Positions 1,629 through 21,990 of a stretch of DNA of 24,049 nt are shown piece by piece (position 1 is the stretch's first letter; every line of letters starts with the position of its first letter). Origin of the DNA: an uncultured Eubacteriales bacterium (GTDB lineage Bacteria > Bacillota > Clostridia > Oscillospirales > QAMX01). Made by a program: the position numbers and the translations under genes. The DNA lies in assembly GCA_900551265.1 (NCBI GenBank), contig URVL01000016.1, forward strand, positions 1 through 24,049, written 5' to 3'. Below the pieces are notes generated by a model. It was not told the DNA's origin. It saw nothing but the letters and a program-made list of their open reading frames with translations, and ran no database searches.

Positions 1629-3308
1629 ATGTCACGAACAAAAAACAGAGGGTTTCAACAGAGTTTCTCTCCCTCTTATACGATCCGGCGCTGGCGGCTG
1701 GGCGAATATATCCGGCTTTCCAAAGAAGATTTGAAAAAAGGAAAAGACGATAGCAACAGCGTAAAAAACCAGCGCGACCTGCTGAATGACTTTTACCAAA
1801 AACACATTGAGGAATTTGAAAGCGTTTCCGAATATGTGGACGATGGACACACGGGGACGGATGCCAACCGCGAAAATTTCCAGCGGCTTCTGGCCGATGT
1901 AATGAGTGGGAAAATCAACTGTGTTGTGGTAAAAGACCTTTCCCGTTTTGCCCGGAATTACAGCGATGCGGGAAGTCTGATTGATAACCTGTTTGTGCAG
2001 ATGGGTGTCCGTTTTATCAGTCTTGCTGAAAATGTGGACAGCTATCTCAACCCGGACAGCGTTTCCAGCATTATTGTTCCGATTACAAATGTAATGAACG
2101 ATCAATACTGCTATCAGACTTCAAAGAAAATCCGCCAGGTGTTTGACTATAAGCGGCGCAACGGCCAGTACATCGGCTCCTTTGCTCCCTACGGCTACAT
2201 AAAAGATCCGAAAGACAAACACCAGTTGATTGTCGATCCCGAGGCCGCCGAGGTTGTAAAGCTCATTTATAACAAGACTTTGCAAGGGGAAACAAGGCGA
2301 GCTATCGTCTACCACCTAAACGACCACGGCATCCCCAGCCCGACAACCTACCGAAAAAATAAGGGCCTGCCCTATTCCTGCTCGGTATCAGATAATCCCA
2401 TGTGGGGAGATCGGGTGCTTACGAACATTCTTACCAACCCGATTTATACCGGGGATTTGGTACAGGGCCGCCGCCGTGTGAAAAGCTATAAGGTACATGA
2501 GATTGAGGCGGTGCCGGAGGATGAATGGGTGCGGGTGGCTGATACCCACGAGGCGATTATAGACCGGGAAACCTTTGAAAAGGTTCAGGCCCTGTTGAAA
2601 CGGGACACCCGGACGGCCCCACGGAAAAAGGAGCTCCATCTGTTCAGCGGTTTTCTCCGCTGTGCGGATTGCGGAAAATCCATTACACGGAGCCAGAGCG
2701 GGAAAAATGTGTATTACGCCTGCTCTACCTACAAATACCGCTCCCGGACTGCCTGCTCCATGCACTCAATCAAGCATGAGCGGCTGGAGGCCGCCGTCCT
2801 GTTTGCCGTCCGTCAACAGGTACATCTGGCCGTTTCCTTTTCGGAGATACTTGCCCGTATCAACTCGGCTCCAGTCAAAAAAAGCCAGTCATTCCGACTG
2901 GATGATCTGATTGCCGCAAAGGAAAAGGAACTGGCGAAAATTACCCGATACAAACAGTCTCTTTATCAAGACTGGAAAGACGGGGAAATTACCCAGCAGG
3001 ACTACCGGACAATGAAGGCTGACTATGAACGGCAAATAAGCTCTATCTCCGATGTGCTGGAGCGGCTGACCGCTGAACGGGCGGAACTGGCAAACGGCGT
3101 TGACAGCGAACATCCGGCGCTGGTGGCATTTAAGAAACACCAGAACATTGAAACGCTCAACCGGGAAATCCTCATTGATCTTGTAAACTACATCAAGGTT
3201 TACGAAAACGGCAATATCAGCGTGAAATTCAAGTTTGCTGACGAGTTTCGTAGAATTGCCGAATACATTGAAATTAACATTTCTGAAATTCCCGCCGCGG
3301 CGGGCTGA
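1629..3308 (+). CDS. Large serine recombinase of a CTn/Tn4451-type element
   Basis: This is a site-specific recombinase that would excise and integrate the element by a 2-bp staggered, serine-linked double-strand exchange. The 559-residue length is normal for the family. The N-terminal resolvase domain starts at about residue 23 with GEYIRLSKED, the nucleophile being Ser31; conserved arginines lie in DLSRFARN (Arg106, Arg109). The recombinase domain covers roughly 170-300. A zinc ribbon follows with Cys345, Cys348, Cys365 and Cys376, and then a long coiled coil (about 410-485) typical of large serine recombinases. The start ATG at 1629 follows GGAAGGAGGAAC. All catalytic residues are present, so the enzyme may be active although the rest of the element is eroded. 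It resembles recombinases of C. difficile CTn2/4/5-type elements, in which the gene sits near one end. The dyad at 3345-3361 is a candidate end site. Confidence 0.95.
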   Translation: MSRTKNRGFQQSFSPSYTIRRWRLGEYIRLSKEDLKKGKDDSNSVKNQRDLLNDFYQKHIEEFESVSEYVDDGHTGTDANRENFQRLLADVMSGKINCVVVKDLSRFARNYSDAGSLIDNLFVQMGVRFISLAENVDSYLNPDSVSSIIVPITNVMNDQYCYQTSKKIRQVFDYKRRNGQYIGSFAPYGYIKDPKDKHQLIVDPEAAEVVKLIYNKTLQGETRRAIVYHLNDHGIPSPTTYRKNKGLPYSCSVSDNPMWGDRVLTNILTNPIYTGDLVQGRRRVKSYKVHEIEAVPEDEWVRVADTHEAIIDRETFEKVQALLKRDTRTAPRKKELHLFSGFLRCADCGKSITRSQSGKNVYYACSTYKYRSRTACSMHSIKHERLEAAVLFAVRQQVHLAVSFSEILARINSAPVKKSQSFRLDDLIAAKEKELAKITRYKQSLYQDWKDGEITQQDYRTMKADYERQISSISDVLERLTAERAELANGVDSEHPALVAFKKHQNIETLNREILIDLVNYIKVYENGNISVKFKFADEFRRIAEYIEINISEIPAAAG

Positions 3309-3776: not shown

Positions 3777-4151
3777 CTATAAAATCAATAAAAAATCATA
3801 AATCGGAAAAAGATGACCGTTACCAAAAGAGGCAGGCGCTGCTGTTTCAAAGTTGCGGAACCGGGTCATATAAGAGCGAATATGGTTTCAGTCAGTTTTA
3901 CTCAGGCGGTGCTCCGTGCATTTTGGGTGCGGTTGTGTTACAGTCCTCTCAAATAAAGGATAAAAGGAAATAGGTGCCTGGGCTGTCTGTTATCCCGTTT
4001 TTGAGGTGCCGGCGTGTGTTATTTGCAAGCAGTATCTTGCGCAGGACGTGTGTTTGGAGTATGATAGGAATGTAATGTTTGAAAAATGTGCTTTTTATTG
4101 ACCGGCGTTCCCTGAAAATTGCACGACACTTGAAACGTAAGGAGTATGCTT

Positions 4152-6113
4152 ATGAAGTACACAAAAGCATGGCTGAATTATGAAAAGGCTGAAAATGCGC
4201 CGGAAGACATCTGTGTGACTTTATCGGAGCGTGGCCCGGTTGCAGACAGCATCCGCCGGGAACTGGAACTCGCGTTTCCCGCTATGTACGGCGTGACGCC
4301 GGTCTTCCGGGACACTGCAGAGGATGCATCGCTTGCCGTAACGTTTGACTGCAACATGGCGTGCGGCCTTGGGGAAGAGGGCTACCGCATTGAGGCTGTG
4401 CCTGGCAGTATTCGCGTTGTATCCGGCTGACAGCGCGGCTTGCTGTACGGTATGTTTGCAATGCTGAAGAGGCTGCGTGTGGGCAAAACCGTTTTTACAC
4501 TTGAAAAAGTACCGTCCAATCCATGGCGCATGCTTGACCACTGGGATAATCTCGACGGCTCCATTGAACGGGGATATTCCGGAAAATCCTTCTTTTTCCG
4601 TGACAATGAGATAACTGTCACAGAACGTATCCGGGATTATGCGCGGATGATCGCTTCTGTCGGTATCAACGCCGTGTGCATCAATAACGTCAATGTGCGC
4701 GGTGTCGCGGCAGAGCTGATCACGGAACGTTATCGTGAACCGCTTGTACGGCTTTCTCGCATTTTTGAGGGGTACGGCGTGAAGCTTTTCCTGTCTCTCA
4801 ACTTTGCGGCTCCAAAGCGTATCGGCGGACTGGATACCTCTGATCCCTGTGATGAGAATGTACGCGCGTTCTGGCGCGCAAAATTTGCCGAAGTATTTGC
4901 GCACATCCCGAATTTCGGCGGTTTTGTCGTCAAAGCAGACTCTGAGGGAGAACCGGGCCCGTTTGCCTATGGCCGTACGCATGCCGACGGCGCGAACATG
5001 CTGGCCGAAATGGTGCGTCCATATGGCGGCATCATTATTTGGCGCTGCTTTGTCTATAACTGCCAACAGGACTGGCGCGACACCAAAACCGACCGTGCCC
5101 GTTCTGGTTATGATAACTTCATCGGACATGATGGAGAATTTGCAGACAATGTGATATTGCAGATTAAAAATGGTCCGATGGATTTGCCGGTGCATCCACT
5201 TTTCGGCGGATTGAAAAAGACGAATATGATGCTTGAGGTGCAGATTGCGCAGGAGTATACCGGACAGCAGCGGCATGTCTGCTATTTGATGCCAATGTTC
5301 CGTGAGGTATTGGACTTTAAAACGTATTGTGGCGCAGAGACAGATACGGTTGCGGATCTTGTCTCCGGGCGTACGCACGGCAATTGCAACTGTGGTATGG
5401 TGGCTGTTACCAACACCGGCGACGACGAAAACTGGACGGGTCATGACCTCGCGGCCGCGAATCTCTATGGTTTTGGGCGTCTTGCTTTTGATACGTCGCT
5501 TAGCGCACAGGAAATTGCGGAGGATTGGATCCGTTTGACATTTGGTTCGGACGAAAGAGTTCTTGAAAATGTGCGGCGCATTTTGATGATGTCGTGGCCG
5601 GCTTATGAGAAATATACATCGCCGCTTGGCATTGGATGGATGGTCACGCCGCATACGCACTATGGACCGGACGTAGAAGGTTACGAGTACGACCGCTGGG
5701 GTACATACCATAGAGCGGATCATATGGGCATTGGCGTTGACCGTACGCCTGAGGGCACGGGCTATACCACGCAGTATCATGAGCCGAATGCTTCAATATA
5801 CGCGGATATCAAGACTTGCCCGGAGGAACTTCTGCTCTTTTTCCATCATGTCCCTTATGCCCATATCTTGAAGACTGGCAAGACCGTGATTCAGCATATT
5901 TACGATACGCATTTTGAGGGCGTAGAGGATGCGGCACAGATGCTCGCTCTCTGGCAGGAGCTAAAGAATCTGGTAGAACCCGCTGTATATGCACGCGTGG
6001 AAGCGCGTCTTGCCTATCAGGCAGAGCACGCAAAGGAGTGGCGTGACAGGATTAATACGTATTTCCATCGTATGACTTGGGTGGAAGATGAGAAGGGCCG
6101 CAAAATTTATTAA
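4152..6113 (+). pseudogene. aguA: GH67 alpha-glucuronidase interrupted by one in-frame TGA
   Basis: The enzyme releases 4-O-methyl-glucuronic acid from the non-reducing ends of xylo-oligosaccharides in hemicellulose breakdown. It is cytoplasmic, since no signal peptide is seen. ATG at 4152 follows AAGGAG (4139-4144). The frame is continuous for 654 codons except for TGA at 4428-4430 (codon 93), in the N-terminal domain just before RGLLYGMFAMLKRL. Family marks are NPWRMLDHWDNLDGSIERGY, SEGEPGPFAYGRTHADGAN, HDGEFADN and EVQIAQEYTGQ. Putative catalytic residues by family alignment from memory are Glu265, Asp327 and Glu362. Total length is near the usual 680. All later motifs are intact and no frame change is needed, so the break is recent, an assembly error, or read through. 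The gene stands alone, without the xylan transporter and xylanase genes that usually accompany it. It ends 75 bp before a strong terminator. Confidence 0.9.
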
Positions 6114-11206: not shown

Positions 11207-12934
11207 TTAAAAATCCCATGATTTTGCAAGCAAATCACTTACCAACGAGCGAGTCGCCTCAAAGATTTCCTCAATGGGTTTTTTCAAGGATACAGATTTG
11301 TCGCGTGTGACCAGTTCACAGCAGCCCTCCTTGAGATTACGTGGGCTGACGATCACACGTACCGGAACGCCAAGTAGGTCGGCATCGGAGAACATGACGC
11401 CGGCGCTGACATGCCGGTCATCATAGAGAACTTCAATTCCCTGCTTTTGCAGGTAATCATAGAGCTGATCGGCCAGCTCATGCGCTTCGGCATTGTCACT
11501 GCGTACGCAACAGATATGAACCTGCCAGGGCGCGATGGAAATTGGCCAGATGGGACCGTAATCGTCATGATGTGCTTCGCAGACCGACGCGGCCAGCCTG
11601 CCGACGCCAATACCGTAGCAACCCATAATGGGATACTGCGACGCACCGTTTTGGTCCAAATACGTCATACCCATGGACTTTGTATATTTCGTGCCGAGCT
11701 GAAAAATGTTGCCGACCTCAATGCCACGCGAAACGGTGATGGCGGGCTTGCCACATTTCGGGCAGATACCGCCGTCGGTAATCTTGGCAAAGTCGTGGAA
11801 TTCGGCGTCGGGGCAGTCGCGTTCGATGTCAAGACCGGTATAGTGATGCTCTGCCAAATTTGCGCCACAGGAAAGATTATTCGTACCTAGCAAAGAATTG
11901 TCATAAAGTACGGTAAAATTACCGCTTAACTGATAGGGGCCAATACATCCGGCAACTAAGCCGCAGTCCTCTGTAATGACAGCGGGGTGAACGTCCACGC
12001 CGATAAAATTGCGAAGCTTCGTCTCGTTTACGTCAAGATCGCCGCGAATAAAGAGCACAATGTAGGAATCGTCCGCATTACGCTGATATACGACCGCCTT
12101 GCAGCTTTTTTCGGTTGGCATATCGAGAAAATTGCAAACCTCTTCAATGGTGTGCATACCCGGCGTGGCAACAAGCGTAAGCGGCCGGGACACTTCATCA
12201 CGCGTATTATAAATGACGCTTTCTGCCGCCTCCATATTGGCACGGTAGTCGCAGTTGCGGCATACGGCGATAGAGTCCTCGCCGACGGGAGTAAGCAGCA
12301 TAAATTCATGCGACAGGTTACCGCCCATCATTCCGGAGTCTGACGCCACGGAAATGACCTCTGGAATGCCTGCACGCGCAAAGATACGCTCGTAGGCACG
12401 GAAACAACGCGCATAATAAGCCTCAAGATCTTCCTGAGACGTATGGAAAGAGTAGGCATCCTTCATGGTGAATTCGCGGACGCGGATCAGACCGGCACGC
12501 GGACGCGCCTCATCGCGAAATTTGGTCTGAATCTGATAAATCATAAAAGGATACTTTGTATAACTTTGGCCGTACTCGCGGACCAAATGCACGGCCGCTT
12601 CTTCGTGTGTCATGCCCAGCACGAGCGGATTTCCGTTACGGTCCGTAAAACGCATCAGTTCACTGCCAACGCTTTCGTAACGTCCGGACTCCTGCCAAAG
12701 AGAAGCGGGCAGCACAACGGGGAACTGTATCTCCTGACCATCTATGGCGTCCATCTCTTCGCGGATAATCTGTTCAATTTTGCGCGTGATACGGCGCAGA
12801 GGCATATAGGAAGAGTAAATGCCGGACGCAACGCCTTTCATGTAACCGCCGCGCAGCATCAGGGCGTGGCTGTCGATGACGCATTCAGAGGGCCGCTCCT
12901 TAAAACGGTCTCCGACTAATTTTTCAAGTTTCAT
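11207..12934 (-). CDS. proS: Prolyl-tRNA synthetase, bacterial type
   Basis: This class II synthetase charges tRNA-Pro. Its 575 residues match the bacterial form (E. coli 572). ATG at 12934 follows AAAGGAGT. Motif 1 lies in the ILPASLWQESGRY-equivalent segment (VVLPASLWQESGRYESVG), motif 2 is FRDEARPRAGLIRVREFTMK, and motif 3 is CYGIGVGRLAASVCEAHHDD. The insertion editing domain that removes mischarged alanine lies between motifs 2 and 3, at about residues 220-400 (includes CKAVVYQ and GDLDVNETKL). The C-terminal anticodon-binding domain begins near WQVHICCV and includes LYDDRHVSAGVMFSDADLLG. It is expressed from a consensus promoter through a T-box leader, so it responds to uncharged tRNA-Pro. 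The gene stands alone. Confidence 0.98.
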   Translation of the reverse strand: MKLEKLVGDRFKERPSECVIDSHALMLRGGYMKGVASGIYSSYMPLRRITRKIEQIIREEMDAIDGQEIQFPVVLPASLWQESGRYESVGSELMRFTDRNGNPLVLGMTHEEAAVHLVREYGQSYTKYPFMIYQIQTKFRDEARPRAGLIRVREFTMKDAYSFHTSQEDLEAYYARCFRAYERIFARAGIPEVISVASDSGMMGGNLSHEFMLLTPVGEDSIAVCRNCDYRANMEAAESVIYNTRDEVSRPLTLVATPGMHTIEEVCNFLDMPTEKSCKAVVYQRNADDSYIVLFIRGDLDVNETKLRNFIGVDVHPAVITEDCGLVAGCIGPYQLSGNFTVLYDNSLLGTNNLSCGANLAEHHYTGLDIERDCPDAEFHDFAKITDGGICPKCGKPAITVSRGIEVGNIFQLGTKYTKSMGMTYLDQNGASQYPIMGCYGIGVGRLAASVCEAHHDDYGPIWPISIAPWQVHICCVRSDNAEAHELADQLYDYLQKQGIEVLYDDRHVSAGVMFSDADLLGVPVRVIVSPRNLKEGCCELVTRDKSVSLKKPIEEIFEATRSLVSDLLAKSWDF

Positions 12935-16173: not shown

Positions 16174-17220
16174 TTAATTAGCATTCTTGTTAGCATTTTT
16201 GAATTTGTCGTAATAGGATTGCATGGCATTAACACTTTTTTTACGATCTAATTCTGAGATGTGTGTATATATTTTGCGCATGGTTTGATCGTCTGACCAT
16301 CCTCCAATCTCCATGGCTATTTTTTCAGGCATACCTAAATGATAAGCTAATGAAGCAAAACTATGACGTAAGCCATGTACACCAACAAGAGGCAAATGAT
16401 ACTTTTCACAAATTGAATTTATGCCTTTCAACATCCAACTTGCAGACATTGTAACAACCATTTCGTCTTTTTCTTTTACGGAAGAAAGTGCGTCTACAAG
16501 TTGAGACATAATTGGTACGCATCTGCGAGACGAACTATTTTTTGATGTTTCCTTACGGATAAATTTGTTATGCTCGTCTGGAACCGTCGCGCCGCGAACA
16601 TAGACGACTTTATTTGATAAATCTACATCACACCAACGCAGACCCAATATTTCAGACTGACGAAGACTGCAAAGCGCTAATAATGCTGGTATTTCAAATG
16701 GTGTATCTTTTATTGCAGGCATAAAAATTTCAATTTGCTCTGGTGTAAGGAAAGGCTTTGTATGTCTTACTATTTGCGGCAACCTTACATCGATTTTATT
16801 TTTTGTTTCTGAGTAAATTACGCTTGACACAAAGCGCCACGCGTTGCAAAGTGTTTTTGCCGAACATTTCAACGCTTCATTATTCACCGCATTTTGTGCA
16901 ACCTCCAGAGTAATATCCTGTACCCCCAAAGTCATAATACTTTGCAGTCTATTATTCTGTATAATCCTATATCCGCGAATAGTGGAAGGGGAAAGTACAT
17001 TTTCACGGGATGATATATATTTATCGATTGCCTGTGACAATGTGGTGTTTTGCTTTTGAGCAGAAAGTCTTTTCCCACTCAAATACTCCGCTTTGATAAG
17101 CTGGGCAGACTTAATGCACTTCTTTTCAGTAGGTTCCGTGACTGAAATGCTTTCGCCGCCTAAACGCAATTGGATAAACCAATTCCCGGAGGACAGTTTA
17201 CGGGGTTTTGGGACTTTCAT
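16174..17220 (-). CDS. int: Prophage tyrosine integrase
   Basis: The product is 348 residues, the ordinary length of a Tn916/phage-type integrase, catalysing insertion at the tRNA-Ser site 46 bp away. The N-terminal part (to about 55) is an arm-DNA-binding region. Residues 60-145 form the SAM-like core-binding domain. The catalytic domain contains LCSLRQSEILGLRW (Arg187), VHGLRHSFASLAYHLG (His282, Arg285), IGGWSD (Trp308 at the second His position) and the nucleophile Tyr318 in KIYTHI. All active residues are present. The ATG at 17220 begins MKVPKPRKLSSGNWFIQL. It is read toward the attachment site on the minus strand, about 40 bp after the DUF4041 gene, probably co-transcribed with it. Confidence 0.96.
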   Translation of the reverse strand: MKVPKPRKLSSGNWFIQLRLGGESISVTEPTEKKCIKSAQLIKAEYLSGKRLSAQKQNTTLSQAIDKYISSRENVLSPSTIRGYRIIQNNRLQSIMTLGVQDITLEVAQNAVNNEALKCSAKTLCNAWRFVSSVIYSETKNKIDVRLPQIVRHTKPFLTPEQIEIFMPAIKDTPFEIPALLALCSLRQSEILGLRWCDVDLSNKVVYVRGATVPDEHNKFIRKETSKNSSSRRCVPIMSQLVDALSSVKEKDEMVVTMSASWMLKGINSICEKYHLPLVGVHGLRHSFASLAYHLGMPEKIAMEIGGWSDDQTMRKIYTHISELDRKKSVNAMQSYYDKFKNANKNAN

Positions 17221-17263: not shown

Positions 17264-18727
17264 TTATCCAACATAATCTTCCATTTTATACGTACTTGTA
17301 TAAAGTTTTTCAGATAATTGTGACTGTCTAAATTCTTCTGCAAGCATAGTTTTTGTAAATTCTGCGGACGGATCAATTTCCATCACAAGTTTTTCTAATT
17401 CTTCAACAGTGGAATAAAAAAATTCTTTACGTAAATTTACTTTATTGACTCTCTTTTCTTTAAGTGTATCATGCAGTCGGCTTTCTAGGTCAACGGCATC
17501 CTCTGAAAAAATAAAACTATGTACATCAAACTTAAAAGGTACACTTGCGTCTCCAAGTTCATCTATACGATCTTGTGGATTGATGCGTCTTGTCATTCCA
17601 ATTTTAAATATATTTTCACCAAAAGAACCAAGATTAGAAATAATATATATATTCCCAGCTTTACCGTTTTGCAGATTTATAATATTATCTTTTTTAATCA
17701 AAACGTCTGAGAGCTTGGATTCAAGGCTAATAATGCGTTGTTGTAGCTGGTTGGCTTCTGTTTCACTAGCATTTTCTAACTGTGACTTTATGCGTTCAAT
17801 TTCATTGGTATATTTCGATTCTTCTTGTTCAATTTTCTTTCGTTCTTCTTCCAAAGCCCTGCGTTCTGCTGCTTCTTGCCTAATTTGCTCACGGATAGCT
17901 GCTTGTTCTTGGCGCGCTTGTTCTTTCTTAATATAGTAGTTATACTCAATCTTAACTGCATTTATAAAAAGATATTCAATTTCACCGATAAAACGCGAGA
18001 GTGTACCTGCAATACTCTGATTCCCATCTGAAGCAATTTCCAGATACTTTTTTGTAATCTTTTTTATATTATCAATTGCGCGATCTAGTTTTTCATATTT
18101 TAAATCATAAAGAACATTTTGCAATTCCGCCTTAAGTGCAATGACCATAAGTTTATAAATTGCTTGATTTGTTTTTGTTGTATAGCGTACTGCATATTGA
18201 TTAAAAACAAATTCTATTTGTCTATTGTTATCACGGAAAGCACGGCGCAAATCTTGAATATCCATACAGTGGAGTTTCAATATTATAGATGGAGCCAAAT
18301 CATCTAGTACTTGTATATCTTCAGGAGATAAAGTTGTAGTTTTTTCGCCAGAATAAAAATCGGCATAATGTGAAATTGAATATTCAATACTTTTATAAAT
18401 TTCACGTGATTTTATCAATTTATTTGTTGAAGTATGCAATTGTTTATTTAGAGCCGCTTCTTTTTCCGTTAATTCATTAATAGTATCATTCTGCTCCATA
18501 ATCGTTGCACTGTTTTGCGCAATGATTTTATTGCCATCTTCAATCGCCGCTTGTATTTTCTCGTATTCAGTATAACGAAGTCCGTCAATTTTTTTTTGAA
18601 ATTCTTCGCAAGCTTTTTTATAAGATTCCAAATCATCATGCAATGACTGTATCTGTTTTAATAGTTTTTGATTTTGATCTTCTACACGTTTTAATTCTCT
18701 TGCAGCTTTTCTTCCGAATAAATCCAT
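17264..18727 (-). CDS. DUF4041 coiled-coil protein with C-terminal GIY-YIG (MUG113/T5orf172) nuclease-like domain
   Basis: ATG at 18727 follows GGTGGTG with 9-base spacing; the ATG at 18748 has no ribosome site. The product is 487 residues. Residues 1-115 are coiled coil (RKAARELKRVEDQNQKLL and on). Residues about 120-260 are the DUF4041 core (KLHCMDIQDLRRAFRDNN region). Residues 265-350 are a charged E/R/K/Q-rich coiled coil. Residues 359-443 are GIY-YIG-like: GNIYIISNLG, ENIFKIGMTRR, then DRIDELGDAS and LESRLHDTLKEKRVNKV, holding Tyr, Gly, Arg and Glu candidates. Proteins of this build recur in phages and islands near integrase and repressor genes. Their role is unproven, and an exclusion or defence function is an inference. 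Consensus promoter at 18761-18789. Likely expressed in the lysogen. Confidence 0.85.
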   Translation of the reverse strand: MDLFGRKAARELKRVEDQNQKLLKQIQSLHDDLESYKKACEEFQKKIDGLRYTEYEKIQAAIEDGNKIIAQNSATIMEQNDTINELTEKEAALNKQLHTSTNKLIKSREIYKSIEYSISHYADFYSGEKTTTLSPEDIQVLDDLAPSIILKLHCMDIQDLRRAFRDNNRQIEFVFNQYAVRYTTKTNQAIYKLMVIALKAELQNVLYDLKYEKLDRAIDNIKKITKKYLEIASDGNQSIAGTLSRFIGEIEYLFINAVKIEYNYYIKKEQARQEQAAIREQIRQEAAERRALEEERKKIEQEESKYTNEIERIKSQLENASETEANQLQQRIISLESKLSDVLIKKDNIINLQNGKAGNIYIISNLGSFGENIFKIGMTRRINPQDRIDELGDASVPFKFDVHSFIFSEDAVDLESRLHDTLKEKRVNKVNLRKEFFYSTVEELEKLVMEIDPSAEFTKTMLAEEFRQSQLSEKLYTSTYKMEDYVG

Positions 18728-18760
18728 AATTTTTTCACCACCAAACATTATATTTTTATA

Positions 18761-18789
18761 ATTTTAACAGACGTATTTCAATATTGCAA
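18761..18789 (-). promoter_or_regulatory. Promoter of the DUF4041 gene
   Basis: On the minus strand TTGCAA (18789-18784), 17 bp, TAAAAT (18766-18761). The start codon is 34 bases downstream of the -10. Confidence 0.7.
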
Positions 18790-18828
18790 CACAATATAAA
18801 AAATATAGGAATTTTTTTCTTTTTTGAC

Positions 18829-18857
18829 TTTACAAATAAGAACATTTGTTCTATAAT
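18829..18857 (+). promoter_or_regulatory. Promoter with LexA-type box for the 29-aa peptide gene
   Basis: TTTACA (18829-18834), 17 bp, TATAAT (18852-18857). The spacer holds AGAACATTTGTTCT (18839-18852), a perfect palindrome that matches the Gram-positive LexA/DinR core GAAC-N4-GTTC. LexA bound here would cover the region between -35 and -10. It differs completely from the three CI operators at 19466-19529. Confidence 0.75.
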
Positions 18858-18887
18858 AACAACACTAAAATAGAAAGGTGTTGCCAG

Positions 18888-18977
18888 GTGAAAAGTGAAA
18901 TTATAAAGTTGATAGAGAGAGCCACAAAAAAACAGTTAAAAGTTATATATAGAATTATAAAGAAAATCATACAATAA
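18888..18977 (+). CDS. Small cationic prophage peptide (29 aa), putatively SOS-controlled
   Basis: GTG at 18888 follows AAAGGTG. The frame runs 29 codons to TAA. The product begins MKSEIIKLIERATKKQLK and ends in VIYRIIKKIIQ. It has nine Lys/Arg against two Glu, and hydrophobic residues spaced for an amphipathic helix. It has its own promoter and terminator and is convergent with the repressor gene. Small helical proteins of this outline (an EIIKLI part followed by a QLKxIY part) are frequent beside clostridial phage repressors and usually unannotated. Possible roles are antirepressor, membrane-acting SOS peptide, or leader-like partner; none is shown. Confidence 0.6.
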   Translation: MKSEIIKLIERATKKQLKVIYRIIKKIIQ

Positions 18978-18993
18978 TCAAATATCAAAATAT

Positions 18994-19033
18994 AAGAAAG
19001 CGACGGTCTAAATTTGATCGTCGCTTTCTTTTT
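18994..19033. terminator. Terminator between the peptide gene and the repressor gene
   Basis: AAGAAAGCGACG (18994-19005) pairs with CGTCGCTTTCTT (19019-19030), followed by T. It serves the plus-strand peptide gene. It overlaps the last codons of the repressor on the other strand. Confidence 0.85.
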
Positions 19034-19403
19034 GCATGTCTGCAACTAATTGGGTCGCCACTTTTTCGAGCATTTCCCACTGTTCGGAAGATAGCCGGGA
19101 CAAGGCATAAATAAATCTACGTTTGAAATCTGGTTCTCCTGCCAGTATATTGCCAAAAAAATCTGCGAGTTCTTCGTCCGGCGTGACAGGGTCAAACATT
19201 TCCCCTTCCCCTGTTCGCAGCCAAATTTCATTGATGCCAAATTCCCGGCAGATATCAGCAATAGTTCGGTCACTAGGTTGTGACGTACCTGCGCATAATT
19301 GAGATACAAATGCTTGAGATACTTTAATCTTCTTAGCAAAATCAGTTTTTCTTATCCCTGACACAGATATAACTTTATTTATCCTATCTTTTAGTTCACT
19401 CAA
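19008..19403 (-). CDS. CI-type prophage repressor (XRE family, without peptidase domain)
   Basis: TTG at 19403 follows GGAGGTG with 7-base spacing; the upstream in-frame residues (FLIIYDLIFIVLE) are the control region read through. The product is 131 residues. SELKDRINKVISVSGIRKTD begins a lambda-like HTH with FAKKIKVSQAFVSQLCAG as turn and recognition helix, and SDRTIADICREFGINEIWLR closes it. The C-terminal 60 residues are acidic and helical (DEELADFFGNIL, then SSEQWEMLEKVATQLV) and contain no LexA/CI-like Ser-Lys peptidase. Induction would therefore not go by RecA-stimulated self-cleavage, and an antirepressor is expected. This makes the LexA-box peptide next to it interesting. The promoter at 19429-19457 reads leftward from the operator region. 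Confidence 0.9.
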   Translation of the reverse strand: MSELKDRINKVISVSGIRKTDFAKKIKVSQAFVSQLCAGTSQPSDRTIADICREFGINEIWLRTGEGEMFDPVTPDEELADFFGNILAGEPDFKRRFIYALSRLSSEQWEMLEKVATQLVADMQKESDDQI

Positions 19404-19428
19404 AAGTATCACCTCCAATACAATAAAT

Positions 19429-19457
19429 ATTAAATCATAGATAATTAAAAAAGTCAA
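19429..19457 (-). promoter_or_regulatory. Repressor promoter (PRM-like)
   Basis: On the minus strand TTGACT (19457-19452), 17 bp, TTTAAT (19434-19429). Operator O1 lies directly upstream of the -35, where bound repressor could contact polymerase. Confidence 0.75.
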
Positions 19458-19465
19458 GAAGATTA

Positions 19466-19529
19466 TTTAAGTGACTTAAAAAATATGCTTGACTTTTTAA
19501 GTTGCTTATGATATTATATAAGCAACTTA
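19466..19529. promoter_or_regulatory. Three-operator lysogeny switch and early promoter PR
   Basis: O1 is TTTAAGTGACTTAAA (19466-19480), perfectly symmetric. O2 is TAAGTTGCTTA (19498-19508) and O3 is TAAGCAACTTA (19519-19529), exact reverse complements of each other with centres 21 bp apart. The shared half-site is TTAAG. The rightward promoter TTGACT (19489-19494), 17 bp, TATTAT (19512-19517) is covered by O2 in its spacer and O3 just downstream. Repressor at O2/O3 would block early transcription. Confidence 0.85.
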
Positions 19530-19553
19530 AAAGATAGACAAGGAGTGATTCAA

Positions 19554-19727
19554 ATGAGCGAACGAGACAAAGAAATCTTGTCCAAACTTGCAGCGGCATG
19601 CGAGGTTTTACCGGATGGAAAGCGTGAATTTTTAATTGGATACGCGGAAGGCGTAGTGGCAATGAAGAAAAAGGAACAGGAGGCGAAGCGTAGTGAAGGA
19701 ACTCAAGAAAGCAGCGAATCGGTATAA
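19554..19727 (+). CDS. First early prophage gene, small protein (57 aa)
   Basis: ATG at 19554 follows AAGGAG with 8-base spacing; the in-frame GTG at 19545 overlaps that site. The product, MSERDKEILSKLAAACEVLP then GKREFLIGYAEGVVAMKKKE, resembles the small helical proteins that open the early operons of clostridial phages (the LPDxKREFLxGYAEG segment recurs in my memory of these). No function is known. It has no HTH. Its end overlaps the next gene by 35 bp. It is the first gene under PR, so repressed in the lysogen. Confidence 0.8.
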   Translation: MSERDKEILSKLAAACEVLPDGKREFLIGYAEGVVAMKKKEQEAKRSEGTQESSESV

Positions 19728-19935
19728 CGACTTGATTGCCATGGTGTGCGGGCGGGCTTTTGTCAAATACGGCAGGCTGGATTATGCGGCATTCAGTAAT
19801 GAAGTTGGAATCAGCGTATCGACACTGAGAAGACGGCTTGAAGATCCGGAAACAATTACGCTGGGAGAGCTACATAAAATTGCATCTGCACTTAAACTCG
19901 AGCAGGACGAAATAAAGGAGAAATTGCCGGTATGA
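19693..19935 (+). CDS. Cro-like HTH protein of the prophage (80 aa)
   Basis: GTG at 19693 follows AGGAGG (19678-19683). The product has YGRLDYAAFSNEVGISVSTL followed by RRRLEDPETITLGELHKIAS, a lambda-type HTH with EDPxTITLxEL as commonly seen in phage regulators of Firmicutes. It ends LEQDEIKEKLPV. It is single-domain, second gene under PR, opposite to the repressor. A Cro-like role at the O1-O3 sites is likely but not shown. Its TGA stop overlaps the ATG of the next gene (ATGA). Confidence 0.85.
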   Translation: MKELKKAANRYNDLIAMVCGRAFVKYGRLDYAAFSNEVGISVSTLRRRLEDPETITLGELHKIASALKLEQDEIKEKLPV

Positions 19936-20078
19936 AGCAGCGTATCCGCCTGATTTATAAAAATTGCGAGGTATGTGGAGAACGGTTTCCGGCATCGATT
20001 GGGAGCATGGAGCGGTATTGCAGCGTATGCTGGACCGGAAAATATCCGTTACTGAGTTTGCAAATATACTCGGTGTGA
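19932..20078 (+). CDS. Small zinc-ribbon-like protein (48 aa)
   Basis: ATG at 19932 overlaps the preceding stop as ATGA, so translation is probably coupled. The product has MKQRIRLIYKNCEVCGERFP followed by a YCSVCWTGKYP segment: two CxxC knuckles about 20 residues apart, a minimal zinc ribbon. It resembles the short treble-clef proteins in phage early operons. The last 105 bp are shared, in another frame, with the start of the next HTH gene if that gene begins at 19973. Confidence 0.6.
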   Translation: MKQRIRLIYKNCEVCGERFPASIGSMERYCSVCWTGKYPLLSLQIYSV

Positions 20079-20197
20079 CACGGCCTTATTTGAACAACGT
20101 CATAAACGGTTCGGCAAATTCTGAGGGATTGCAGGCGCGCATCAACGAGTATCTTGCAATACCGCCCGACTTTCGAGCCACCAAGACAAATTCTTGA
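19973..20197 (+). CDS. Phage HTH protein overlapping the zinc-ribbon gene
   Basis: The frame encodes VLQRMLDRKISVTEFANIL, then GVTRPYLNNVINGSANSEGL, then QARINEYLAIP: a clear XRE-type HTH that ends at TGA 20195-20197. The start is uncertain. ATG 19973 (after GCGAGG, close spacing) gives 74 residues. TTG 20018 (after GGAG) and ATG 20027 are alternatives that begin just before the first helix. In related proteins the domain begins a few residues before the helix, which favours a start before 20018. It is a regulator or a DNA-binding accessory in the early operon. Confidence 0.7.
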   Translation: MWRTVSGIDWEHGAVLQRMLDRKISVTEFANILGVTRPYLNNVINGSANSEGLQARINEYLAIPPDFRATKTNS

Positions 20198-20236
20198 CGC
20201 ATAAATGTCGGTTTGCAAAACGAAAGGAGGTGACAC

Positions 20237-20434
20237 ATGAAACACCGTACAGTTCCCTACCCTGATAACCCGGTAATCAAGATAGACGTCAACGAGATTC
20301 CGGAAGAAATAAAATGGGATCTTGCGAGGGCGACCTATGAAGCCGTGTTGAGAAGCTTACGCGACCCGGAACAGCGCGCGATCATAGAGGCCCGCAAAAA
20401 GCTGAACGCCGAAAAAGCTCACGAAGGGAGGTAA
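20237..20434 (+). CDS. Early prophage protein, unknown (65 aa)
   Basis: ATG at 20237 follows AAAGGAGGTGACAC, a strong ribosome site. The product, MKHRTVPYPDNPVIKIDVNE then EIKWDLARATYEAVLRSLRD, is soluble with one predicted long helix and a basic end (EARKKLNAEKAHEGR). I do not recognise the family. Separated from the previous gene by 39 bp and from the next by 9 bp, it belongs to the PR operon. Confidence 0.75.
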   Translation: MKHRTVPYPDNPVIKIDVNEIPEEIKWDLARATYEAVLRSLRDPEQRAIIEARKKLNAEKAHEGR

Positions 20435-20443
20435 TAGTCTTTG

Positions 20444-20929
20444 ATGGAACAAAAAGAAAAGGCCGCGCTGACACCACAGACGCGACCACGTGAAATGAAC
20501 CACGAAATTATTATAGCAGAAATGGCGCTGGTTTGTCAAACGGAACATTTGCGGGAGACAATCGGCGGTAAGATTTCCACCCGTGACTGTGTAAAAACGC
20601 TAAAGGCGCTTTATCCGGGGTTTGACAAGACACTGCTGTCAAAATGCATGAACACCGCGCATTACGGCGTTGTATTACACCGGAATGGGATGGCCGCATT
20701 ACGACAGGCATTCCCGGAGCTTGACGCTCAGAATGCGCCAGAATCCAAAATGCGGCGTAAATCCGACGGGCATAAGTTTACATGCCGTGTGCAGGCTCGA
20801 TTGCCTGACGAGCAATACAGCGAGTTGCAACGGTTCATACGTGCTGACGGTTACTGTACGATGCAGGACTGGATTTCCGATCAGATACGGAAGTACCTGA
20901 AACGTAAAAGAAGGGAGAAAAGAAAATGA
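20444..20929 (+). CDS. Early prophage protein, unknown (161 aa)
   Basis: ATG at 20444 follows GGGAGG. The first 100 residues (MNHEIIIAEMALVCQTEHLR, then DCVKTLKALYPGFDKTLLSK, then YGVVLHRNGMAALRQAFPE) look like a small helical domain. The last 55 (TCRVQARLPDEQYSELQRFI, then YCTMQDWISDQIRKYLKRK) have the sheet-helix-helix order of a ribbon-helix-helix or CopG-like DNA-binding motif: a short strand, then two helices, with a very basic tail. A DNA-binding function is inferred only from this pattern. The stop overlaps the next start as ATGA. Confidence 0.75.
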   Translation: MEQKEKAALTPQTRPREMNHEIIIAEMALVCQTEHLRETIGGKISTRDCVKTLKALYPGFDKTLLSKCMNTAHYGVVLHRNGMAALRQAFPELDAQNAPESKMRRKSDGHKFTCRVQARLPDEQYSELQRFIRADGYCTMQDWISDQIRKYLKRKRREKRK

Positions 20930-21159: not shown

Positions 21160-21404
21160 GTTCAAAATTTGAAGGCGGTGTTAGGTATTATACGAAGGGA
21201 AAAGCGACTGTCAAAATACCATTTCCGGAGCAAGATATCTGTTGCCAGAACTGCAAGTTGATGATTGGAGAGTATATCACACGACGGAGCAGGTGCGCGG
21301 TGACAGGCGAGATTATCCCGGATCCGGAATATATGATCGGATATGACTGTCCATTAACATTTGAAGAAAAGGAGAACGATCATGAGTTTGATTGTAAGCA
21401 GTAA
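21156..21404 (+). CDS. Cysteine-rich early prophage protein (82 aa)
   Basis: ATG at 21156 overlaps the previous stop (ATGA). The product has KIPFPEQDICCQNCKLMIGE, then RSRCAVTGEIIPDPEYMIGY and DCPLTFE. Its cysteines (CCxxC, C-x2-T-G-E, DC) could bind one zinc. This family occurs directly before the gene for the SSB-tail protein in many Gram-positive phages and is probably part of the replication module. Its last 23 bp overlap the next gene in another frame. Confidence 0.8.
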   Translation: MSSKFEGGVRYYTKGKATVKIPFPEQDICCQNCKLMIGEYITRRSRCAVTGEIIPDPEYMIGYDCPLTFEEKENDHEFDCKQ

Positions 21405-21990
21405 CGCGACTGGCGGTTTTGCGCCCATGGAGGCCGGTACTTATCCGGCGATCTGCTATGGCCTGGTAGACCTGGGCGAACAGTACAGCGAGACCTATGA
21501 CAAATGGTCGCCCAAAATCCTGATTCTGTTTGAAATCCCGGGCGAGACGCTGGAAATCAACGGTGAAGAAGTCTCCCGGACTATGAGCAAGTCGTATACG
21601 ATGAGCTTAAACGAGAAAGCCGCGCTGCGCAAGGATCTGGCCAGCTGGCGCGGACGGGATTTTACGCCGGAGGAACTCAAAGGCTTTGACCTGCGCAACA
21701 TTTTAGGCGCGCCGTGCATGGTCAGCGTGATTCACCGCGAACGCGGCGGAAAAACGTATGCGGATATCAACGGCATTATGAAATTGCCAAAGTCCATCCC
21801 CGTTGACCTGCCTCGGTGTAAAAAGATTGTGTTTGACCTGGACGAAAGTCCCCTTTCCGACATGGAAAAGCTTCCGGAATGGATTCAGGAACGGATCCGC
21901 GGCAGCCAGACATATGCTCAGCGCATCGGTCTTGTCCGAGAAGCGACGGAGCAAACAGACGATATAGACGATGAGGAAGTCCCCTTTTAA
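21382..21990 (+). CDS. Phage replication-module protein with SSB-like acidic tail (202 aa)
   Basis: ATG at 21382 follows AAGGAG; in-frame codons further upstream lie in the previous gene. The product starts MSLIVSSNATGGFAPMEAGT, has WSPKILILFEIPGETLEING and KSYTMSLNEKAALRKDLASW, and then a beta-rich part GAPCMVSVIHRERGGKTYAD. It ends DDIDDEEVPF, which matches the acidic C-terminal tail of single-stranded-DNA-binding proteins (DDDIPF type) used to recruit replication and repair partners. The general outline, an OB-like beta domain followed by a tail, supports a phage ssDNA-binding protein. A specific family name is not asserted. It lies just upstream of the initiator and helicase loader. Confidence 0.8.
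   Translation: MSLIVSSNATGGFAPMEAGTYPAICYGLVDLGEQYSETYDKWSPKILILFEIPGETLEINGEEVSRTMSKSYTMSLNEKAALRKDLASWRGRDFTPEELKGFDLRNILGAPCMVSVIHRERGGKTYADINGIMKLPKSIPVDLPRCKKIVFDLDESPLSDMEKLPEWIQERIRGSQTYAQRIGLVREATEQTDDIDDEEVPF

Follow-up and report, generated by a model that had tools for sequence, protein, structure and literature searches.

A gene of 29 codons, placed under a LexA-type operator and convergent to the gene of a CI-like phage repressor, was identified in the stretch of clostridial DNA analysed here (24,049 nucleotides; hereafter the window). We regard it as likely, with a probability of roughly 0.7, that this locus is the DNA-damage switch of a prophage with a non-self-cleaving repressor, and that the encoded peptide displaces CI. 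This reading draws on features visible at the sequence level: the operator, promoter, open reading frame, terminator and convergent layout, the tie between such peptides and short CIs, a profile resemblance, and covariation with the CI C-terminal region.

In the undamaged cell, host LexA bound to GAACATTTGTTC in the promoter spacer would silence the peptide gene. RecA-driven cleavage would remove LexA and the peptide would be made; it would fold as a two-helix hairpin like the C-terminal hairpin of CI and join the C-terminal (oligomerisation) domain of the repressor as a false subunit. CI would then leave its operators, probably a set of AAG-N3-CTT palindromes, the early genes would start and the prophage would be induced. 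Departure of LexA from the spacer operator appears to be a well supported step. LexA binding at this site, binding of the peptide to CI, derepression, induction and oligomerisation through the CI C-terminal domain are steps that we infer.

Promoter, operator and peptide gene

The promoter (18829-18857, forward strand) consists of TTTACA (18829-18834), a 17-nt spacer and TATAAT (18852-18857). It matches the consensus at 11/12 positions and was the best of 19 promoter-like sites when 17500-20500 was scanned. The LexA-type operator sequence GAACATTTGTTC (18840-18851, forward strand; reverse complement GAACAAATGTTC) fills the spacer and abuts the -10 hexamer; with one flanking base on each side it reads AGAACATTTGTTCT (18839-18852). 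A Shine-Dalgarno-like AGAAAGGTG (18872-18880, forward strand) ends 7 nt ahead of the GTG start of the peptide gene (18888-18977, forward strand), which is supported by its translation and by family alignments. Its product, VKSEIIKLIERATKKQLKVIYRIIKKIIQ, has 29 residues, among them 7 K, 2 R and 2 E.

An intrinsic-terminator-like hairpin (18994-19030, forward strand; stem arms 18994-19008 and 19016-19030, with a T run) starts 16 nt past the peptide stop codon and overlaps the 3' end of the convergent repressor gene. Folding of 18980-19040 gave -25.1 kcal/mol (z -8), and none of 200 shuffles folded equally well; a simple terminator scan of the window did not call this hairpin. An earlier note on this DNA had described a TTTACA-17-TATAAT promoter with the box in its spacer, driving a short gene with its own terminator, and these features held up on re-examination.

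The same note had matched the box to the Gram-positive LexA core GAAC-N4-GTTC. That pattern occurs once in the whole window, where 0.31 copies are expected, and 27 of 100 window shuffles held at least one. Taken alone, the box is weak evidence and could be due to chance. We nevertheless place it beyond chance because it sits in the promoter spacer and recurs at the same place in relatives, and it is this recurrence that settles the match.

Repressor and prophage setting

The peptide gene adjoins, 3' end to 3' end, a convergent gene for a CI-like repressor of 131 residues (19008-19403, reverse strand; TTG start assumed) with a helix-turn-helix (HTH) and a three-helix C-terminal domain. Its Pfam matches were to HTH families alone, with no peptidase among them, in agreement with the earlier claim that the adjoining repressor lacks a self-cleaving peptidase domain. 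The predicted structure (pLDDT 94.7) comprises the HTH and C-terminal helices at residues 75-88, 93-102 and 106-129. The last two helices (residues 93-129; 19017-19127, reverse strand, coordinates derived from the residue numbers) form the part matched by the peptide profile described below. Three AAG-N3-CTT palindromes, at 19469, 19499 and 19520 (19469-19528), lie between CI and the early genes; they are unlike the LexA-type box and are likely to be the CI operators.

A tyrosine integrase gene (16174-17220) and, beside the repressor, a PD-Lambda-1 anti-phage defence gene (17264-18748, reverse strand; PADLOC E 1.6e-78, T5orf172 domain) lie on one side, and small early genes with a phage replication-initiation gene (21361-21990) lie on the other, which suggests that one end of a prophage is present. 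No tRNA was found in the window, and a CI-family search in five host relatives gave no match. Elsewhere in the window, a 575-residue protein encoded at 11207-12934 is presumably prolyl-tRNA synthetase. One gene at 4146-6113 (forward strand), which we take to be an alpha-glucuronidase gene, is apparently split over two frames (4146-4430 and 4440-6113). A large open reading frame at 1629-3308 (forward strand) looks to us like a serine recombinase, and a second mobile element may end in the window.

The layout in related phages

CI relatives were gathered from viral contigs and genomes with the sequences of the window repressor and its relatives. Some of these queries came from contigs that had been picked by the box, and the CI alignment comprised those results plus the window, L004 and L007. 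We lined up 136 loci, of which 134 entered (L246 and L012 lacked a CI stop) and formed 103 clusters at 85% CI identity; 101 clusters were counted after L242 and L003 were dropped for short flanks. A small open reading frame was scored if it had 25-62 codons and a ribosome site, lay on the opposite strand, and stopped between 60 nt beyond and 30 nt inside the CI stop.

Such a convergent frame was present at the CI 3' end in 65 of the 79 loci with a CI of at most 135 residues (shuffle mean 10.3/79 over ten rounds) and in only 3/22 loci with longer CIs (Fisher p 4.5e-9, for a length cut of 135 residues chosen after the pattern had been seen). Two of the three frames at long CIs were judged by eye to lie outside the peptide family. 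The same judgement was made for three of the 65 (L150, L171 and L009), which were left out of the peptide profile and the property counts (n=62); L143, L229 and L008 were further omitted from the covariation and own-tail comparisons (n=59). Of the 14 short-CI loci scored as misses, two (L225 and L005) do encode a family-like peptide, but at a place that the positional rule does not admit. At 4587-4748 and 5349-5513, L005 also shows two tandem CI-like genes, each near a small hydrophobic frame (TIVLITAILNL...) of nearly identical sequence, and its family-like peptide lies beyond the second of them.

A nucleotide-level match to the repressor gene led to a phage scaffold from human faeces, MT838851.1, in which the gene order agrees with that of the window. 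There, GAACTAATGTTC abuts TATAAT and precedes a small frame, of 35 codons if counted from GTG or 41 if counted from a TTG further upstream; a hairpin and a convergent repressor come next. When 391 genomes from a single class were searched with the peptide profile, 14 matches were obtained in 11 genomes, at 12 distinct loci. Eight of the 12 are accompanied by a convergent CI gene of this family, six of these with a box of at most one mismatch and four with an exact box; one of the eight is L007's own locus, which is in the profile, and two are near-copies of each other. The remaining four lack a strong convergent CI-family gene, one having a weak, non-convergent CI match and three none.

CI matches were also found in 128 phage and plasmid records (59 phage, 69 plasmid), and all seven of those examined encode a family-like peptide convergent to CI. 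An exact box stands at the peptide in Terrisporobacter phage TPDSL_ph2, and one-mismatch boxes stand near it in Blautia phage Montmirail, a Eubacterium callanderi plasmid prophage and a C. difficile phage. No box was found in Butyrivibrio phages Arawn and Idris, although the convergent family-like peptide is present in both. A tblastn search of named phages with a consensus-like peptide probe returned only two weak records.

The alignments give a family consensus of roughly YK-xx-II-x-LL-(N)-L-xx-IY-x-FIK. No peptide matched Pfam or NCBIfam above a curated cut-off; the library matches were weak and included DUF7889 (E 0.0016; 18.1 bits against a cut-off of 27) and PHROGs of unknown function (E 0.04-0.2). 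A protein search with the first seven peptides gave 14 proteins among 26 candidates, without Pfam domains. For one relative, the predicted peptide structure is a pair of helices with a short turn between them (pLDDT 90.7). A substitution-rate test had one usable pair (pN 0.026, pS 0.058), too little to count.

In 17 of 58 loci, an HTH model built from five of those loci or their cluster mates picked out a gene for a small HTH protein (about 65 aa) upstream of the peptide. It is on the same strand in 15 (L178, L179, L148, L203, L208, L217, L161, L224, L237, L241, L251, L253, L140, L001 and L007), and 11 of the 17 loci also have a LexA-type box. The HTH protein is a possible second input to the peptide.

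Probable control by LexA

An exact GAACN4GTTC was found within 150 nt upstream of the peptide frame in 26 of 65 loci (shuffle mean 0.04); 44 of the 65 have a box there if one mismatch is allowed (shuffle mean 2.5). The corresponding counts were 0/65 and 4/65 upstream of CI, and 2/480 and 12/480 upstream of other open reading frames. When the window, L140, L142 and L143, the loci closest to the box-picked contigs, were left aside, exact boxes stood at 22/61. The commonest near-variants were GAACN4GTTT and AAACN4GTTC. Most of the exact boxes lie in the -35/-10 spacer or close to the -10, and a TATAAT-like hexamer (at least 5/6 positions) was near 25 of 29 exact boxes. The earlier note had named conservation of the frame and the box in related prophages as the point on which its proposal could fail; the comparison was run, and both were found to recur, the box with the reservation that 21/65 loci have not even a one-mismatch copy upstream of the peptide frame. 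LexA is therefore not the sole input. As 15 of 58 loci also carry the same-strand HTH gene, different inputs may feed into the peptide as a shared output.

The box itself has many other users, since a family-like peptide was found in only three (L076, L127 and L137) of at least 120 viral stretches picked by GAACN4GTTCTATAAT. In L137 (5563-5810), an exact box and a peptide-like frame occur with no CI of the family seen adjoining; this frame ends early in a TA repeat and looks broken or wrongly sequenced. Another viral contig (L027, 9690-9892) has five GAACN4GTTC boxes within about 200 bp.

A C. difficile LexA study gives GAAC-N4-GTTT as the site ahead of lexA and recA and GAAC-N4-GTTC as that of uvrB; its binding assays used a recA operator containing GAACAAATGTTT (PMC4234289). 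This same GAACAAATGTTT also precedes lexA in the two nearest relatives of the host that were found, whose counterparts of the protein encoded at 11207-12934 of the window are 91% and 89% identical to it; the sequence is one base off the window box read on the other strand (GAACAAATGTTC). In these two, no good box was seen in the stretch read at recA. None was seen at lexA in the third closest relative, where the lexA start is over-extended. Among six genomes reached through the collected loci, a box with at most one mismatch precedes lexA in four and recA in four, and was absent at lexA in two and at recA in two. Pseudobacteroides (P. cellulosolvens) has exact boxes before both genes, that of lexA being GAACATTTGTTC, identical to the window's, and that of recA GAACGGATGTTC.

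In a plasmid prophage of Paraclostridium sordellii (L298, NZ_CP124276.1), a lexA gene (2558-3178) lies directly upstream of the peptide and is co-oriented with it. Its product scores 147.5 bits with the lexA equivalog model, whose cut-off is 110.95, and two one-mismatch boxes precede the gene. This phage-like plasmid may represent a phage supplied with an SOS sensor of its own. The proposal that LexA controls the peptide gene thus gains support from the comparison, through the exact and near-exact boxes at the peptide, the lexA variant in host relatives and the prophage-borne lexA, and we consider it very probable that the window promoter is under LexA control.

Resemblance to the repressor C-terminal hairpin

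The profile of the 62 peptides was aligned with a profile of the last 44 residues of CI. In this single comparison hhalign gave E 4.2e-6 and a score of 22.7 over 32 columns, and the maximum score in 100 column shuffles was 11.4. Against full-length CI, the peptide profile matched residues 86-117, which form the C-terminal hairpin and not the HTH helices (E 7.9e-5). Both sides of this match are short amphipathic hairpins, and their likeness could have arisen by convergence.

When 59 loci were compared, the divergence of the peptides tracked that of the C-terminal domain of CI (partial Mantel r 0.304, p 0.0005) and more weakly that of the DNA-binding domain (partial r 0.117, p 0.089). In a sliding scan along CI the covariation peaked at residues 73-105 (r 0.31-0.33). 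It was smaller in a divergent subset of 48 loci (C-terminal domain r 0.21, p 0.022; N-terminal domain r 0.13, p 0.096). Peptides were about as similar to their own CI tails as to those of other loci (25.2 vs 24.6, p 0.20; shuffled tail 20.5), giving no cognate signal. We read these results as suggesting common origin or convergence at the family level, together with co-adaptation at an interface.

DdrO of Deinococcus (PDB 6jq1) was the best PDB Foldseek match to the window CI and the only one with E <= 0.001 (E 6e-4), with a TM-score of only 0.46. Matches with E 3e-3 to 9e-3 included SinR/SinI (PDB 1b0n, E 3.4e-3) and the phi106 repressor solved with AimX. These matches say little about the C-terminal domain of CI because the TM-scores are near 0.46 and many matches cover the HTH only. 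The VIA-align comparison of the CI model extended mostly over residues 1-70 and so is silent on that domain; for the peptide, VIA took in 12 chains, a number too small for the absence of AimX, SinI and others from its list to count against them.

Alternative explanations

The convergent layout with CI, the tie to short, hairpin-type CIs, the profile match and the C-terminal covariation all lead us to favour an antirepressor, a role that these comparisons make probable; that it acts by mimicry of the CI C-terminal hairpin is somewhat better than an even prospect. The earlier note had left the choice between an antirepressor and an SOS-induced membrane peptide, and of these we prefer the former. 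A TisB-like peptide that acts on membranes or as a toxin, and has no part in CI control, would fit the 29 residues, net charge of +7 and LexA-type box of the window copy. TisB-like SOS peptides are hydrophobic and membrane-spanning, a character that was not found here (GRAVY -0.06 in the window copy; over the family, mean -0.17 and maximum 0.63). The description of the peptide as cationic, with 9 Lys/Arg and 2 Glu, was correct for the window copy but does not extend to the family, in which net charge runs from -3 to +7, the window peptide is the highest of 62, and 21/62 are at or below zero. Non-conserved charge and low hydropathy led us to reject a membrane peptide or toxin as the main reading; the placing of such frames beside short CIs (65/79) and rarely beside long ones (3/22), and the covariation with the CI C-terminal region, also argue against it, and we give it hardly any weight. 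Another reading is a LexA-controlled modulator or partner of CI, Mor-like or a stabiliser, that would alter and not abolish repression after damage. The same tie to CI and its C-terminal region would then appear, and the 21/65 loci without a LexA-type box imply that expression need not be SOS-limited. LexA repression, however, would make the peptide scarce in the lysogen, when a co-repressor would be needed, and likeness to the CI hairpin would suit competition better than help, so we consider such a modulator unlikely.

There are two further readings. The box might be the operator of another regulator, such as CI or the small HTH protein that 15/58 loci encode upstream of the peptide on the same strand. 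Yet of 40 box-bearing loci with sufficient flanking sequence, 29 lack an upstream HTH gene on the same strand, and several of the genomes examined have boxes of this type ahead of lexA and recA. A CI operator was rejected on the absence of exact boxes before CI (0/65) and by the different palindromes, AAG-N3-CTT, beside CI in the window. Operation by another regulator is accordingly quite improbable. It is also conceivable that the convergent transcript, as antisense or through collision, is what matters and that the frame is incidental; the promoter aims at the 3' end of cI, as it must by definition of the layout. Against this, the protein family is recognisable in frame over divergent loci and, in the window, a strong hairpin parts the promoter from most of cI, which leaves this reading very improbable. 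An antirepressor peptide under LexA control remains our preferred reading.

Comparison with known systems

The SinI antagonist is a small helical protein that resembles the C-terminal hairpin of its partner, an HTH repressor. SinR/SinI of Bacillus subtilis (PDB 1b0n) is in this respect like the window pair, in which profile and prediction indicate a helical hairpin resembling that of the partner; the window locus differs in its LexA-type box, its phage-borne nature and its convergent arrangement. The SinI Pfam model gave no match at E <= 1 for nine peptides, in a search whose filters drop most matches above 0.1. AimX, judging by the titles of PDB entries 9iaq and 9sf2, is likewise a small antirepressor; its target, the phi106 repressor, is an HTH phage protein similar in size, and by entry title the system is activated through arbitrium. 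No AimX chain was among the sequence matches to the peptides at E <= 10, a comparison limited by the shortness of the sequences.

The Salmonella Gifsy prophages have antirepressors under direct LexA control, GfoA and GfhA, and a repressor that is not cleaved on induction (PMC3121763). Like the window, they combine a small gene that has a LexA operator sequence in its promoter with a repressor without a self-cleaving peptidase domain. The Gifsy genes belong to enterobacterial phages and, by the abstract of that paper, lie outside the immunity region (PMC3121763), whereas here the gene is convergent and adjacent to cI. Unlike the Gifsy proteins, the present peptides are carried by phages of Clostridia and relatives, have about 29-57 residues and resemble the C-terminal hairpin of the repressor itself. 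The window peptide may work like a Gifsy antirepressor but would not be a member of that family, from which its gene position sets it apart. Coliphage 186 Tum and the phage-plasmid N15 are, judging by titles cited in PMC10432266, further cases of LexA-controlled antirepressors.

The TF-smORF modules of Silpe et al. 2023 include phage small proteins that inactivate cI, smORF72 doing so without proteolysis (PMC10432266). These modules are given there as independent of DNA damage and activated by a partner transcription factor, whereas 44/65 loci here have a LexA-type box. DdrO is inactivated by the metalloprotease IrrE (PMC7907104). Phage small proteins, including antirepressors, have been reviewed in PMC11323111. 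In the open-access literature, titles and the beginnings of abstracts held no account of this peptide family or of a LexA-controlled antirepressor with this layout in Firmicutes. LexA-controlled antirepressors that act on non-cleaved repressors are already known in Salmonella phages; what seems new here is this peptide family and its layout.

Implications

The results point to a widespread, unannotated family of genes that are smaller than gene callers usually accept, with a likely target domain named. Prophage repressors of Firmicutes often lack a self-cleaving domain. It seems to us an even bet that temperate phages of Clostridia and relatives with a short (about 120-130 residue), non-cleavable CI share antirepressor micropeptides of about 29-57 residues, derived from the C-terminal hairpin of CI itself and encoded convergent to cI. 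On this reading such peptides would serve as an interchangeable input port, connected often to host LexA, in at least one case to a phage-borne LexA and elsewhere to other regulators. The inducing signal of such prophages could then partly be read from sequence. If the proposal is true, a 29-residue mimic of the oligomerisation hairpin of a repressor would be an unusually small antirepressor.
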